From Flavobacterium sp. (GTDB taxonomy: Bacteria > Bacteroidota > Bacteroidia > Flavobacteriales > Flavobacteriaceae): a DNA stretch of 64,000 nucleotides. The position numbers and the translations under genes are program-made. Under the pieces are notes generated by a model. The model did not search any database, had not been told where the DNA came from, and was given only the letters and a program-made list of their open reading frames with translations. The stretch lies in the NCBI RefSeq assembly GCF_039595935.1, contig NZ_JBCNKR010000004.1:991001-1055000 (forward strand). Reading direction: 5' to 3'. The first letter of the stretch is position 1; each line of letters opens with the position of its first letter. Shown in pieces: positions 22,831 through 28,071 of this stretch.

Positions 22831-24078
22831 ATGTTATTCGAAGATTTATCACTTTCAAAAAGTATACAAAGAGCTGTATTTGAAGAAGGCTATACAAACC
22901 CTACTCCAATTCAGGAAAAATCTATTCCGATTGTTTTATCCGGACGTGATTTGATTGGCTGCGCTCAAACAGGTACCGGAAAAACTGCAGCATTTGCAAT
23001 TCCTATTATACATCAATTACACCGAATTGTTGGTTCATCAAAAAAAGCAAAACAAATTCGTGCGCTTGTTGTAACACCAACACGTGAGCTGGCTGTTCAG
23101 ATTGGACAGAGTTTTGATACTTATTCTAAATACACCAATTTAACGCAATTGACCATTTTTGGAGGAGTTTCACAAAATCCGCAGGTTGATGCTTTAAAAA
23201 ATGGTATTGATATTTTGGTGGCGACTCCCGGCCGATTATTAGATCTGCATAAACAAGGTTTTCTTGATTTGAATCATCTGCATACTTTAGTATTAGATGA
23301 AGCGGATCAAATGCTGGATATGGGTTTTATAAATGATGTAAAAAAGATTGTAAAACTTACGCCAAAAAACAGACAAACTTTATTGTTTTCTGCAACAATG
23401 CCTCTTGCTATTCTTGAATTGGCAGAAATGTTTCTGCAGGATCCTGAGAGAGTTGAAGTTTCTCCCGTTTCATCTACTGCAGAAAATGTAGAACAGCGTA
23501 TTTATTTTGTTGATAAAACAGAAAAAAGAAACCTGCTGTATCATTTGATCAAAAATGAAAATTTATCAAACGTACTTGTTTTTTCAAGAACAAAACACGG
23601 TGCTGATAATGTTGTAAAAGCACTTCGTAAAAAAGATATTCCGGCCGAAGCTATTCATGGCGACAAATCGCAAAATGCGAGACAACGTGTTCTGGATGCT
23701 TTCAAAAACAAAGAAGTTGGTGTTTTGGTTGCTACTGACATTGCTGCCAGAGGAATTGACATTGAACAGCTTCCGTATGTTATCAACTTTGATTTACCAA
23801 ATATTCCTGAAACTTACGTGCACAGAATTGGTCGTACCGGACGTGCCGGAAATGGCGGTATTGCGATTTCTTTCTGCGGAAAAGACGAAGAGCCTTACTG
23901 GAAAGATATTAAGAAATTAATAAAAGTTGATGTAAAAATTATTTCAGACCATCCGTATCAATGGCATGCCGGAAGTCCTGAAGCCGGAGAAAAACCGAAA
24001 AACTCAAACAGAAGCGGCGGTGCTCATAAATCGAGAAAATCAAATACTTCTAAAAAGAATAAAAAACGCTGGTATTAA
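22831..24078 (+). CDS. DEAD-box ATP-dependent RNA helicase (RhlE-like)
   Basis: A 415-residue two-domain helicase: Q-motif region TPIQEKSIP, Walker A AQTGTGKT (45-52), PTREL, DEAD at 156-159, SAT, ARGIDIEQLPYVINFD and HRIGRTGRAG. The tail after about residue 375 is basic and low-complexity (KSRKSNTSKKNKKRWY), a usual RNA-binding extension in RhlE-type proteins that act in ribosome assembly and cold adaptation. Its stop codon lies in the loop of the terminator shared with the convergent histidine kinase, and the two coding regions overlap by 4 bp. Confidence 0.94.
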   Translation: MLFEDLSLSKSIQRAVFEEGYTNPTPIQEKSIPIVLSGRDLIGCAQTGTGKTAAFAIPIIHQLHRIVGSSKKAKQIRALVVTPTRELAVQIGQSFDTYSKYTNLTQLTIFGGVSQNPQVDALKNGIDILVATPGRLLDLHKQGFLDLNHLHTLVLDEADQMLDMGFINDVKKIVKLTPKNRQTLLFSATMPLAILELAEMFLQDPERVEVSPVSSTAENVEQRIYFVDKTEKRNLLYHLIKNENLSNVLVFSRTKHGADNVVKALRKKDIPAEAIHGDKSQNARQRVLDAFKNKEVGVLVATDIAARGIDIEQLPYVINFDLPNIPETYVHRIGRTGRAGNGGIAISFCGKDEEPYWKDIKKLIKVDVKIISDHPYQWHAGSPEAGEKPKNSNRSGGAHKSRKSNTSKKNKKRWY

Positions 24079-24090
24079 CCAGCGTTTTTT
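24061..24090. terminator. Bidirectional terminator embedded in the ends of two convergent genes
   Basis: AAAAAACGCTGGT-ATTA-ACCAGCGTTTTTT is a 13-bp stem. The stop codons of the helicase (24076-24078) and the kinase (24075-24077) both fall at the loop, so each arm is coding sequence for one of the two proteins. Confidence 0.93.
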
Positions 24091-26261
24091 GATTCGTTTA
24101 TTAGGTAATTTAAAATTTTAAAGAGCTTAACCGGTTCAAAAGGTTTCACAATTATATCGTTCATTCCTGCAGAAATGGCTTCATCTGTGATTTCGTCTTT
24201 ATCAAAAGCTGTCAATGCAACAACTGGTGTTTTTAAGCCCAGCTGACGAATTCTTTTTGTGGTTTCGAATCCGTTCATCAGCGGCATGTTAATATCCATC
24301 AAAATAAGATCAAACTGCTCATTTTCTAATATAGTAAGAGCACCAAAACCATCGTCTACTACTTTACATACAAAGTTGTTCTTTTCGATAATTTTCTTGG
24401 TCACTAACTGATTGATCTGATTATCTTCTACAATAAGAATTTTATATATATCACTCGAAGTTAAATCAACTTCAATATCTTCAATAATTTTCTTCGTTTT
24501 TTGAGGATCATGCTCAAAAGGAATGACGAATGAGAATGAAGTTCCGGCTCCCAGATCGCTTTCCAGAGTAATGGAGCTTCCAAAAAGTCCCAATAATCTT
24601 TTTACAATACTAAGACCAAGTCCTGTGCCCTGATAATCTTCGTCTTTTCTTCCTACCTGAACAAATTTTTCAAATATTTTGTTTTGATCTACAGCGGCGA
24701 TTCCAACTCCGTTATCTTTTATTAAAAAGTCCAGATAATGAAATTTCCCTTCTACTTTGTCAAGTCTTACGATTATTTCAACTTCTCCGTCTTTAGTAAA
24801 TTTCAATGCATTACTTACCAAGTTCATCAAAATCTGCGCTAAACGAAGTTTGTCTCCAATCAAATACTCAGGAATATCAACATCGATAGCGACGTTAATT
24901 TTATTATTATTTTTTTGAGCCAAAAATGACAGTGAATTTTTAATTACTGTAATTTCATCCGATATATTAAATGTTAAACTCTCCAAAACCACTTTATTCT
25001 CTTCTATTTTATTAATCTGCAGAATATCGTTTACCAAAGACAATAAATATCGGGCCGAAAATTTTAAGGCGCTTAAATGCTGGCTTTGCGATAATTCTTT
25101 ATGTTCTTCCAGAAGCATATTTGTAATTCCGACAACACCATACAGCGGAGTACGTAATTCATGGCTTATAGTAGAAATAAATTGAGTTTTGAGCAACGAG
25201 GCTTCTTCGGCAATTTCTTTTGCTTTTACGAGCTCTAAATTGTGTTTTTTCTTTAACCCAATATTCTTAACTAACGTAACAATTAGGAAAAGAAGTATAA
25301 ATGAGATTAAAATAAACAGGATTACTATAATTCGTGATTTTTTGAGACTCTGGGACTGGGCTGTTTTTTCATTTTCAATTTTCTCAATTTGTCTTTTATA
25401 TTCATCCAGTTCCAGGTTTAAACCAGCCACAGAAGCTTTTTTTAGTTTTTCCTCACTGTATTGTTCTCCGGTAATTTTATTGTAAATGATTAGATTATCA
25501 TAAGCTTCTTTATGCTTACCTATTTTATTTAAAAATCTTGAATATTCTAAATGTGCATATGCTAAATCAGCTTTTTCGCCTTTTGAATCATCTTTTGAAA
25601 TCGCTTTCTTAAAGTATCTATCGGCGTTAATAGTGTCATTTTCACTTGACCAGTACATTCCATTTAAAAAGTTTAAAGCAACATCATCCGATTTTCCTTT
25701 TAAATCATTTTCATGTTTGTTTATGTAAAGTAAATAAGGTAATCCTGCTTTATAATTTCCAATTTTAAAGTACGACCAGACAATATTAAGATTAGTTATA
25801 GCAACTTCTTTCTGATATTTTTGCTGTTTACCAAATTTTAATGATTCTTTGTAATAGGCAATTCCGTGACCGTACATTTTTTTCTCAAAAAAATACAGGT
25901 TTCCCAAATTGCTCGTAATCATCATCCTAAGACTCACAATATTAGATCGTTCGGCATAGTATAACGCTTTTTTATAAAAAAAGATGGCTTTGTTGATTTC
26001 GCCTAAATCATGAAAATTAATCCCTATGATGTTGTAGTTTCTTGAAATTAAAGTATCATTTTTAATATCAAATGCATACTGCAGAGCAATTCCAGATTTT
26101 TTTAAGGATTTTTCGTAATTAGTTTCGTCCAAATAATCACAAGCTTGTTGTGTTAAATCTTTAACTTTTGCAATAGTTACAATTTGGTTTTGAGCTGACG
26201 ACTCAGAACTAAATATGTTTAGAAAAGCAAAAATTAAAAAACAAAATCTATACTGAAGCAT
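24075..26261 (-). CDS. Hybrid sensor histidine kinase with N-terminal TPR domain
   Basis: 728 residues: signal peptide (1-23), tetratricopeptide repeats (about 35-260), a short coiled coil, one membrane helix (310-331), HisKA with phospho-acceptor His367 (FISTISHELRTPL), and HATPase (NLVSNALKFTKDGEV, DNGVGI, GTGLGLSI). A C-terminal receiver domain carries phospho-acceptor Asp656 (LMDINMPLMNG). The periplasmic TPR region would sense a protein or cell-envelope state. It lacks a DNA-binding domain, so output must pass to another protein. It is divergent from the double-glycine peptide at 26565, with 303 bp between them. Whether the two are related is unknown. Confidence 0.95.
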   Translation of the reverse strand: MLQYRFCFLIFAFLNIFSSESSAQNQIVTIAKVKDLTQQACDYLDETNYEKSLKKSGIALQYAFDIKNDTLISRNYNIIGINFHDLGEINKAIFFYKKALYYAERSNIVSLRMMITSNLGNLYFFEKKMYGHGIAYYKESLKFGKQQKYQKEVAITNLNIVWSYFKIGNYKAGLPYLLYINKHENDLKGKSDDVALNFLNGMYWSSENDTINADRYFKKAISKDDSKGEKADLAYAHLEYSRFLNKIGKHKEAYDNLIIYNKITGEQYSEEKLKKASVAGLNLELDEYKRQIEKIENEKTAQSQSLKKSRIIVILFILISFILLFLIVTLVKNIGLKKKHNLELVKAKEIAEEASLLKTQFISTISHELRTPLYGVVGITNMLLEEHKELSQSQHLSALKFSARYLLSLVNDILQINKIEENKVVLESLTFNISDEITVIKNSLSFLAQKNNNKINVAIDVDIPEYLIGDKLRLAQILMNLVSNALKFTKDGEVEIIVRLDKVEGKFHYLDFLIKDNGVGIAAVDQNKIFEKFVQVGRKDEDYQGTGLGLSIVKRLLGLFGSSITLESDLGAGTSFSFVIPFEHDPQKTKKIIEDIEVDLTSSDIYKILIVEDNQINQLVTKKIIEKNNFVCKVVDDGFGALTILENEQFDLILMDINMPLMNGFETTKRIRQLGLKTPVVALTAFDKDEITDEAISAGMNDIIVKPFEPVKLFKILNYLINESKNAG

Positions 26262-26522
26262 AATTTGGGCGTATGTTTATTCAAATATACATTATTATAA
26301 TAATTACACAATAATAGTATTTACCTTAATAATGAAAGATTAAATAATCATTCTTTTTTCTTTGATATTTATTGCAAGGCTTTAGGTAGAATTTTATAAG
26401 AAACATTGAGGTATTACAAAAAATACACAATCATTTTTCCATCAACATATCTGAAAAATATTCAAAGAAAAACTTAAATAAATAAAAAATAATATTATTT
26501 TTAACAAAACCAAAAAACACAA
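26262..26522. other. AT-rich intergenic region between hybrid kinase and small peptide
   Basis: No convincing gene. Both neighbours are transcribed away from it, so it must hold two promoters, but no exact TAnnTTTG box is visible. An open frame on the minus strand here is low-complexity Phe/Leu sequence and overlaps the peptide gene, so it was not accepted. Confidence 0.5.
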
Positions 26523-26548
26523 ACTCCAAGTGTTTAAAAGATTGGAGT
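26523..26548 (+). other. Small hairpin in the leader of the double-glycine peptide gene
   Basis: ACTCCAA (26523-26529) pairs with TTGGAGT (26542-26548) around a 12-nt loop, ending 16 bp before the ATG. It could shield or present the ribosome binding region. It has no T-run and is not a terminator. Confidence 0.45.
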
Positions 26549-26564
26549 ATTAAATCCAAAAAAT

Positions 26565-26693
26565 ATGTTAGATAACCTTTCAAAATTTGAAGAAACAGAA
26601 AAATTAACAAAAGCACAACAAAAAGCAATCACTGGAGGAGATACTCCTGAAGAAAGTGAAGATGCAAGAAAAGGTAAAGTTGCTGCAAAATAA
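26565..26693 (+). CDS. Small peptide with double-glycine (bacteriocin-type) leader
   Basis: A 42-residue reading frame. The first 25 residues (MLDNLSKFEETEKL then TKAQQKAITGG) have the hallmark double-glycine leader pattern: acidic/hydrophobic helix, L-S/T-K-x-Q-Q-K-x-I, then GG. Such leaders are cut after GG by C39-peptidase ABC exporters. The released part would be DTPEESEDARKGKVAAK, 17 residues, hydrophilic, without Cys, Ser/Thr clusters or hydrophobic stretch, so it looks like a signalling peptide or modified-peptide scaffold rather than a pore-forming bacteriocin. No exporter or maturase is in the window. The gene has its own terminator and is flanked by a divergent hybrid kinase. Real coding status rests on the leader match. 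Confidence 0.8.
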   Translation: MLDNLSKFEETEKLTKAQQKAITGGDTPEESEDARKGKVAAK

Positions 26694-26728
26694 ATTCACT
26701 AGTTGATTTTATCAGCTTTATAAAAATC

Positions 26729-26765
26729 AAAAACCGTAACAAACAAAATCTGTTACGGTTTTTTT
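26729..26765. terminator. Bidirectional terminator between small peptide and symporter genes
   Basis: AAAAACCGTAACA (26729-26741) pairs with TGTTACGGTTTTT (26751-26763), flanked by A- and T-runs. It serves the peptide gene and the convergent symporter gene. Confidence 0.92.
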
Positions 26766-26784
26766 ATATTCAAAAAGAAATAAA

Positions 26785-28071
26785 TTATTTTTCTTCTATT
26801 GTATTAAAATTTTCTTCATTTCCATTTTCCCATTGCCCAACAACCGAAGTTGCAAGTGCATTTCCTAGTACGTTGGTTGCACTTCTAAACATATCACAGA
26901 AATGGTCAATTGGCAAAATCAATGCAATTCCTTCTACCGGAATTTTAAACATTCCGCAGGTTGCTGCAACTACAACTAAACTTGCTCTCGGTACACCCGC
27001 AATTCCTTTACTCGTAAGCATTAAAACCAAAAGCATTGCCATTTGAGTTCCTAAATCTAAATGTACATTGTAAAACTGCGCAATAAAAATACTGGCAAAA
27101 GTCATGTACATCATACTTCCGTCAAGGTTAAATGAATATCCTAGCGGCAGCATAAATGACACGATTCTGTCTTTTACGCCAAAGCTTTCTAATTCTTCTG
27201 TCAACTTAGGAAAAACAGCTTCTGAACTTGTTGTTCCAAAAGCAATTGCCAAAGGCCCAATGATGCGTTTTAATAATTCGATCATTCTTCCTTTTAAGAA
27301 AATAAAACCAACTGCGATTAAAACAACCCACAATGTTCCAATTCCTAATAAGAATGAACCGAAAAATTTAAAATACGTAATTAATAATTCTTCTGCATCA
27401 CGTACAGCAAAAACGGCTGCAATGGCACCAAAAACTCCAATTGGAGCAAAGTTCATTACATAGTTTACCATTTTTAATACAATATGTGATATTTTGTCTA
27501 AAGCGCCAATTACTGGTTTTACAGTATTTCCTAAAGAAGCTGCAGCTAATCCGAAGAAAATAGAAAAAATTACAATTTGTAAAATTTCATTAGTTGCCAT
27601 TGCTTCAATAATACTTTTGGGAACAATATGCTCAACGAAGTTTTCAAAAGATAAATTTTGTGTTTTAGCTGTTACTTCAGAAGCCGAAGCCATATCTACG
27701 TGTCCTAATTTCAGACCTACTCCAGGCTCTAAAATATTAACGTAAAACAAACCAATTAATAATGAGATAAACGAAGCCGTAAAAAACCATCCAAGTGCTT
27801 TTCCTCCAATTCTACCCACCGTTTTTATATCTCCTAATTTTGCGATTCCAACAACCAGAGTAGTAAAAACCAAAGGAGAAATAATCATTTGTACTAAACG
27901 GATAAAAACTGTCGCCAGCATTTTAATTTTGGTACTAAAAGACTGTGCCGCTTCTGGCGAAATATAATGATGTAAAATAATTCCAAGAGCTGCGCCAAGG
28001 AACATTGCAATTAAAATCTGCCCGGTTAATCCTTTAATAAATGATTTTTTCTTAGTTTCTGTAATTTGCAT
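26785..28071 (-). CDS. Dicarboxylate/amino acid:cation symporter (DAACS family, GltP/DctA-like)
   Basis: 428 residues with eight membrane helices and two re-entrant loops typical of the family. It shows FGTTSSEAVFPKLTEEL (the serine-rich loop), the LGYSFNLDGSMMYM motif of helix 7 and GIAGVPRASLVV of the second loop. The proteins take up glutamate, aspartate or C4-dicarboxylates with sodium or protons. The Arg in GVPRAS is a position that influences the choice of substrate, but the exact cargo cannot be set. It is a single gene downstream of aroC on the same strand (51 bp gap) and shares a terminator with the small peptide. Confidence 0.93.
   Translation of the reverse strand: MQITETKKKSFIKGLTGQILIAMFLGAALGIILHHYISPEAAQSFSTKIKMLATVFIRLVQMIISPLVFTTLVVGIAKLGDIKTVGRIGGKALGWFFTASFISLLIGLFYVNILEPGVGLKLGHVDMASASEVTAKTQNLSFENFVEHIVPKSIIEAMATNEILQIVIFSIFFGLAAASLGNTVKPVIGALDKISHIVLKMVNYVMNFAPIGVFGAIAAVFAVRDAEELLITYFKFFGSFLLGIGTLWVVLIAVGFIFLKGRMIELLKRIIGPLAIAFGTTSSEAVFPKLTEELESFGVKDRIVSFMLPLGYSFNLDGSMMYMTFASIFIAQFYNVHLDLGTQMAMLLVLMLTSKGIAGVPRASLVVVAATCGMFKIPVEGIALILPIDHFCDMFRSATNVLGNALATSVVGQWENGNEENFNTIEEK

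Follow-up and report, generated by a model that had tools for sequence, protein, structure and literature searches.

What does a 42-residue reading frame with a double-glycine (GG) leader do between a hybrid histidine kinase gene and a sodium:dicarboxylate symporter gene of a Flavobacterium genome of 5.49 Mb? The frame lies at positions 26565 to 26693 (plus strand) of the stretch analyzed here, a window of 64,000 nucleotides. The answer that we favor, and consider probable though by no means settled, is that it encodes a small exported GG peptide with a pseudoknot-controlled leader, which is exported in trans and possibly serves as a signal. Translation gives MLDNLSKFEETEKLTKAQQKAITGGDTPEESEDARKGKVAAK, and this agrees with the description in the initial annotation of a GG-leader gene with a 17-residue core lacking Cys. 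The leader comprises residues 1 to 25 (26565-26639), with GG at residues 24 and 25, the core residues 26 to 42 (26640-26690), and the stop codon follows at 26691-26693. The core is short, hydrophilic, and free of Cys, with acidic residues first and basic ones after.

Close orthologs of the peptide (E ≤ 2e-7) were present in 8 of the 199 genomes of the genus set, the own genome included, and a scan of named genomes, which overlap in part with those of the genus set, retrieved 17 loci, one of them with a decayed copy. Species with the peptide include F. defluvii, F. resistens, F. panici, F. pectinovorum, F. hydrocarbonoxydans, and F. soyae, and all named relatives that carry it belong to Flavobacterium. 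Length differences among the copies amount to whole codons, and tandem coding copies of the gene were found in G079, F. panici, and Root186. For 19 intact copies (locus L162, with a start outside the script pattern, and the decayed locus L178 were left out), dN/dS was 0.18 in the leader, 0.28 in the core, and 0 from the motif RKGKV onward; RKGKV is invariant in these copies, the core being kept there and not diversifying. The initial annotation had proposed a comparison of the core among related species, and this returned homologs in which the GG leader is conserved, GG being present in all 19 aligned intact copies. GG leaders as a rule carry hydrophobic residues at positions -4, -7, and -12; here, Ile occupies -4 and Leu -12 in 19 of 19 copies, and -7 holds Gln in 18 and Leu in one. 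The peptide scores under the curated cutoffs of NF047798 (14 versus 23.5), TIGR04194 (14 versus 33), and PF14406 (14.3 versus 25) and is not among the matches of TIGR04149. Taken together, the gene is real and under purifying selection, and a chance open reading frame (ORF) is ruled out by the conservation and the dN/dS values.

The position of the gene is equally constant. All 8 genus orthologs and all 17 loci of the named-genome scan lie between the same two genes, namely, the divergent kinase gene (24075-26261, minus strand) and the gene of the symporter family protein (26785-28071, minus strand; PF00375, E 4.5e-110), the latter being the other flank and outside the proposed system. Among the 30 best kinase loci, the gap between kinase and symporter is about 520 to 810 bp in the 8 with the peptide and only 61 to 139 bp in the 22 without it, absence having been read on one side of the kinase and judged by gap size at the remaining loci. 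Pseudoknot, gene, and terminator form a stand-alone unit, and kinase and symporter are directly adjacent in most of the relatives examined. The terminator is an intrinsic one at 26729-26763, in the space that separates the peptide gene from the symporter gene converging on it; in its core stem, 26733-26741 pairs with 26751-26759. It was the 1 site predicted, against 0.0 expected, and the prediction was confined to the minus strand; the plus strand, too, has a T-run after the stem, and the terminator is apparently bidirectional. Its stem is kept, with paired changes, in the 8 orthologs. In the decayed copy of Flavobacterium sp. Root420 (L178:4835-5195), GG, frame, and pseudoknot are lost and the terminator is kept, which the symporter gene can share. 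The initial annotation mentioned neither the leader pseudoknot (26516-26548) nor this terminator nor the adjacency of kinase and symporter where the peptide is missing.

Upstream of the start codon, the 8 orthologs are strongly alike and share the block GACAC-AA-GCCCCAA-GTGTC..-TTGGAGC, which contains two interleaved helices, S1 (GACAC/GTGTC) and S2 (CYYCAA/TTGRRG), with a first loop of 2 to 3 nt and an A-rich last loop. In the window, the element is a putative H-type pseudoknot of about 33 nt (26516-26548, plus strand) composed of S1 (26516-26520 with 26530-26534), L1 (26521-26522), S2 (26523-26529 with 26542-26548), and L3 (26535-26541); its 3' end is 16 nt before the start codon. The fold of the window also contains an alternative hairpin that pairs S2b with the nucleotides preceding the start codon; it was discarded, the orthologs not conserving it. 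As to transcription, the sequence TATTTTTA (26496-26503, plus strand) is one base off TAnnTTTG, which a passage of a study that also treats the lengths of 5' untranslated regions gives as the -7 box of flavobacterial sigma-A (PMC9723704). A TAnnTTTA box is present upstream of the pseudoknot in 8 of 8 orthologs, and no -33 box was seen ahead of the -7-like box of the window. This box would put the transcription start just before the pseudoknot, which, since the box sits upstream, would be a transcribed leader in the clade of the window. A consensus promoter ahead of the elements was in general not found, the exact TAnnTTTG occurring in 3 of 113 stretches.

The same block, traced through weak peptide matches, stands before many other GG-leader peptide genes. 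A pairing scanner (score ≥12) found a match before 30 of 123 GG-peptide genes, as against 1 to 5 in shuffled copies, a few of the 30 not resembling the element. The starting alignment held 30 of 37 scanner matches (score ≥11.5), the seven unlike the element having been dropped; its cells were paired at 94.6%, versus 88.0% after shuffling, in elements that had been chosen for pairing. We then compiled A4, a set of 49 further copies outside the starting 30 that came from a sequence-only nhmmer profile (alignment A3). In A4, 94.2% of the cells were paired, as against 26 to 51% in slid controls. Double changes numbered 85; shuffling gave 17.6, none of 500 shuffles being as high, and the slid controls gave no more than 16. 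None of the models behind A4 contained S1 as a helix, and S2 was one in the RNA model R1, which fetched part of those loci; within A4, only S1 is free of selection, because the scanner required pairing and R1 scored S2. A7, a mixed set of 49 that includes 19 copies from 9 other genera, showed compensatory changes in 11 of 13 base pairs; its 101 double changes compare with 31.5 after shuffling, where none of 500 trials was as high, and with no more than 21 in slid controls. Alignment cells are not independent events in any of these pairing and change counts. In the other genera, S2 is mostly changed on both sides (CCTTGA/TCAAGG, CTGTGA/TCACAG, CTTTGA/TCAAAG). The comparative data thus support an H-type pseudoknot through compensatory change.

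We assessed how widely the element occurs and what it precedes. In the own genome, R1 gave three strong copies, all of which precede GG-peptide genes and had served to train R1; a fourth RNA match (E 0.29) had no small GG ORF after it and was taken as noise. Across the genus set, R1 retrieved 77 copies, which came from 29 of the 199 genomes; the 396 other genomes of the family draw contributed 19, spread over 11 genomes and 9 other genera. The R3 searches, run with strict filters, covered an order draw and a phylum draw of 296 genomes each, which overlap. The element was found in 11 genomes of the former, including one (G660) from another family, and in 7 of the latter, which all belong to Flavobacteriaceae. 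The G660 copy (L235:936-984) is the sole one outside Flavobacteriaceae in the draws, and 16 copies are present in G777, of another genus (g131), seven loci of which were read (L232, L238, L243, L246, L247, L249, and L251). An ORF recognized by the leader hidden Markov model (HMM) starts near the 3' end of the element in 85 of the 92 copies from the genus and in 17 of the 19 from other genera; with GG leaders recognized by eye, a GG-peptide ORF follows 91 of 92 and 18 of 19, respectively. The genus loci had been fetched partly for their peptides, and the leader HMM was built from genus peptides; the loci of other genera were fetched by the RNA model alone. At random places in the same peptide-rich loci, the count was 10 to 14 of 111. 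By eye, 21 of the 23 R3 loci listed, among which L241 repeats an earlier place, hold an ORF with a G[GAS] leader. The G660 copy precedes a 114-residue ORF with a Sec-type signal by eye rather than a GG peptide, and no peptide ORF was found after the copies at L050:15012, L151, and L252.

The element is likewise tied to export genes. (i) A C39 peptidase is encoded in 29 of 29 element-positive genus genomes versus 58 of 170 others (Fisher p 1.7e-12, genomes counted as unrelated). (ii) A standard cluster, made up of a TPR-AraC regulator, a VKOR protein, units of element plus peptide, a C39-ABC transporter, and HlyD, recurs at L040, L043, L048, L050, L125, L126, L128, L133, L134, L137, and L139 to L142; the TPR-AraC gene was not seen at L040 and L043, and, given the VKOR protein, the Cys-rich peptides may contain disulfides. 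(iii) Among copies in loci of at least 8 kb, named-genome loci left out, 51 of 67 share their locus with at least one standard-cluster gene and 40 of 67 with C39-ABC. (iv) Seven loci (L041, L044 to L047, L049, and L051) have the full peptide-export cluster without the element at E ≤ 0.02, one of which, L044, holds a diverged copy (seen as L015, E 0.14); the cluster therefore does not require the element. The leader pseudoknot recurs before GG-peptide genes of Flavobacteriaceae, many of which are clustered with a C39-peptidase ABC exporter and HlyD. At four places beside TPR-AraC regulators (L046:4196-5573, L047:4450-5374, L049:10554-11670, and L041:4496-5398), five to eight GG peptides, nearly identical and without Cys, are arrayed in tandem, and no pseudoknot was found there; a relative in the own genome (L048:8956-9114) is weakly TIGR04149-like.

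Seven to nine placements, the window copy among them, are orphans with no cluster genes close by; the peptide of the window appears to be a scattered member of a set of exported peptides that this RNA marks. The initial annotation had called it an orphan and the best candidate for a small-peptide system, which holds in that the GG peptide is away from an exporter, but it is not a lone peptide, belonging as it does to a large GG set marked by the RNA. For the element itself, Rfam 15 returned no match over the gathering score in positions 26000 to 27000 of the window or in 12 loci, and a known Rfam family was accordingly rejected for the stretches searched. Open-licence literature, screened by title and the start of the abstract, yielded no description of this pseudoknot RNA or of this peptide family; the element was found in none of the catalogs searched.

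We propose that the pseudoknot exerts control in cis as an RNA element of the mRNA leader. It would most likely act on translation, because in the window it ends 16 nt before the start codon and no terminator follows it. That it precedes both Cys-rich bacteriocin-like and Cys-less peptides suggests that exported peptides are controlled jointly, and the output of the whole set may be governed by a common cue or RNA-binding factor. Export would take place in trans: as had been stated initially, no exporter is encoded in the window (contig C4), and the genome search for C39-ABC and HlyD genes that had been advised retrieved two C39-ABC genes (PF03412), at C6:880005 and C6:832439, both on contig C6. 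The former is located inside a GG-peptide cluster with HlyD, whereas the latter adjoins a lantibiotic dehydratase gene, and we infer that C6:880005 is the likelier exporter. The region around C6:832439 was seen to be a separate cluster of the lanthipeptide type (L254:9925-15237; G000:C6, about 832-838 kb). The C39-ABC/HlyD pair at C6:880.0-883.5 kb would thus export the peptide and cut it after GG, releasing DTPEESEDARKGKVAAK. More speculatively, this mature Cys-less peptide would be a signal rather than a toxin, and it may be read by the TPR-like domain of the neighboring kinase.

The last step leads to a more specific proposal, according to which the peptide and the neighboring kinase are a cognate pheromone pair, the peptide binding to the TPR-like domain; it would add to the main reading rather than exclude it, and we regard it as tentative. 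The kinase was initially described as a TPR hybrid kinase. Pfam identified HisKA, HATPase, and receiver domains but no TPR in the N-terminal part, which is nevertheless predicted to be an all-helical TPR-like array (about residues 30 to 278) between a signal-like helix and a long or transmembrane helix, and which would be extracytoplasmic. The best matches of the sensor model (pLDDT 83.5) in a Foldseek search of the PDB were TPR arrays, and among those solved with peptides, LGN/Pins appeared from rank 1 and Rap-Phr receptors from rank 22; the predicted resemblance to peptide-bound arrays favors a pair, but TPR folds match many unrelated TPRs. Between this kinase and 22 orthologs without the peptide, the sensor (residues 25 to 310) is 45 to 51% identical, as compared to 87 to 93% for HisKA/HATPase and 81 to 91% for the receiver. 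Judging from these identities, evolution of the sensor is very rapid whether the peptide is present or absent; that the sensor diverges far faster than the kinase core would suit a pheromone receptor, but it is equally variable where no peptide exists.

The distribution of the two genes argues against a pair. The kinase is present in 120 of the 199 genus genomes (E ≤ 1e-160), as against 8 for the peptide, and the two are thus not inherited together; since the kinase is far commoner, co-occurrence gives no dedicated pair. Besides the 22 of 30 loci mentioned above, the peptide is missing from all 8 additional hybrid-kinase loci that were inspected. It takes 3 changes to account for the peptide label on the kinase tree, which has 40 rows and leaves out six duplicate genomes and one truncated row, and Root420 keeps a full-length kinase gene (81% identical) beside its decayed peptide. 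A second kinase family speaks for the pair. It carries the same sensor (38 to 42% identical in the three G175 kinases measured) on a HisKA_3 kinase, and at one site shared by G175 and G004, these HisKA_3 paralogs are divergent beside Cys-less peptides with cores ending IDKGGKG or alike. Each of the two genomes has one element-bearing GG peptide there, and G175 has a second GG peptide without the element and a third relative without GG. Of the seven to nine orphan placements, two adjoin one sensor family, for which a rough, after-the-fact estimate gives a chance probability of the order of 1e-5, and the Cys-less GG peptides beside TPR-AraC regulators form a third theme that points in the same direction. 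Against this stand the 44 HisKA_3 paralog loci fetched (48 kinases), of which L182 alone holds the element and the other 43 were negative; divergent leaders could be missed there, because the leader HMM missed even the L182 peptide. The suggestion that the kinase could respond to the peptide therefore survives in part: the link is mainly positional, to which the fast sensor and the second placement beside the same sensor have been added.

Somewhat less likely still is that the peptide is an effector, bacteriocin-like or modified, and not a signal, although it would be exported like the Cys-rich GG peptides. It shares the leader type and the RNA element with the Cys-rich bacteriocin-like GG peptides of the exporter clusters, and the lantibiotic dehydratase beside the second C39-ABC of the genome is a further point in favor. 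Such a role agrees poorly with the composition of the core described above and with its being kept at RKGKV rather than diversifying, and beside the peptide gene we recognized neither a modification enzyme nor an immunity candidate.

That the element is a DNA operator, with overlapping inverted repeats bound by a regulator, and not an RNA structure appears improbable. S1 alone does resemble a dimer site (GACAY-N9-RTGTC), and 31 of 113 elements (at L106, L112, and L113, for instance) have an additional palindrome without a loop, such as TCTTGCGCAAGA, immediately ahead of them. These palindromes vary in sequence yet stay palindromic (TCTTGCAAGA, TCTTGGCCAAGA, and CTCGCGAG are further cases); they are perhaps a regulator site, and none was seen at the window copy. 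The interleaved helices and the loop lengths, however, fit an H-type pseudoknot, and G-U cells exceed A-C cells in all three alignments (28 versus 9 in A3, 55 versus 8 in A4, and 40 versus 12 in A7, these cells not being independent), so the element fits RNA rather than DNA. Its orientation relative to the gene is also fixed (0 of 111 in the opposite direction), and in the clade of the window it lies downstream of the -7-like box. A chance or decayed frame, with the function residing in a small RNA from the same place, would suit the conserved 5' element, the terminator, and the one strain with a decayed frame, but can be dismissed almost entirely given the dN/dS values of 0.18 and 0.28, the whole-codon differences, the unchanged RKGKV of 19 copies, and the tandem coding copies.

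The pseudoknot-controlled exported peptide that we favor resembles several known systems in part. (i) With GG peptides of the ComC/bacteriocin type (NF047798 leader_Chryseo and PF14406 Bacteroid_pep), it has the GG leader, Leu at -12, and Ile at -4 in common; it differs from these two families in its scores under their cutoffs and its short, Cys-less core. Like other C39-exported GG peptides, it has C39-ABC/HlyD in the same genome, but here the exporter is unlinked, and none of the descriptions of GG-leader peptide families that we found includes a leader RNA pseudoknot. (ii) H-type pseudoknots are class features of the preQ1, SAM-II, SAM-V, and SAM/SAH riboswitches, which likewise have a small pseudoknot of this type in the mRNA leader. 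The present element differs in preceding genes for exported peptides and not metabolic genes, and in having no Rfam 15 match in the stretches searched. (iii) Gram-positive peptide-pheromone three-component systems include ComCDE and Blp, and RRNPP receptors have TPR domains; a fast-evolving sensor on a conserved kinase is typical of the three-component systems. Shared with these are the GG peptide, the C39 exporter in the genome, and the adjoining histidine kinase with a TPR-like sensor. The TPR-like domain here would, in contrast, be outside the cytoplasm on a membrane kinase, the kinase mostly occurs without the peptide, and no DNA-binding response regulator is directly beside the peptide gene; the fast sensor on a conserved kinase is found here as well, but also where no peptide exists. 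(iv) The Downstream-peptide motif occurs near small peptide genes. This motif and Flavo-1, which is found in flavobacteria, are RNA motifs that also stem from comparative genomics, and neither matched in the stretches searched. Both carry Rfam numbers in a table of PMC2864571, and Flavo-1 is also named in a part of PMC9723704. For peptide clusters of Bacteroidales, PMC10352776 notes C39 transporters together with a single histidine kinase/response regulator pair and with tetratricopeptide genes.

A broader generalization may be drawn, which we put forward as a possibility rather than an expectation: the element would represent a new class of pseudoknot of Flavobacteriaceae, riboswitch-like or read by a protein, through which one cue governs a scattered set of exported GG peptides that includes both stand-alone Cys-less pheromones, read by the TPR sensors of membrane kinases, and Cys-rich bacteriocin-like peptides of the exporter clusters. 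To our knowledge, little has been reported on the control of small exported peptides in Bacteroidota, and such peptides are easily missed in annotation. A pseudoknot common to about a hundred peptide genes offers both a handle on their control and a tag for exported peptides that have escaped annotation. The locus also lends itself to asking cleanly whether peptides are recognized by TPR sensor kinases of Bacteroidota: one sensor family sits on two kinase types, each of which adjoins this kind of peptide in some species. If the broader generalization is true, it would amount to a Gram-negative peptide-communication system that is controlled at the RNA level.
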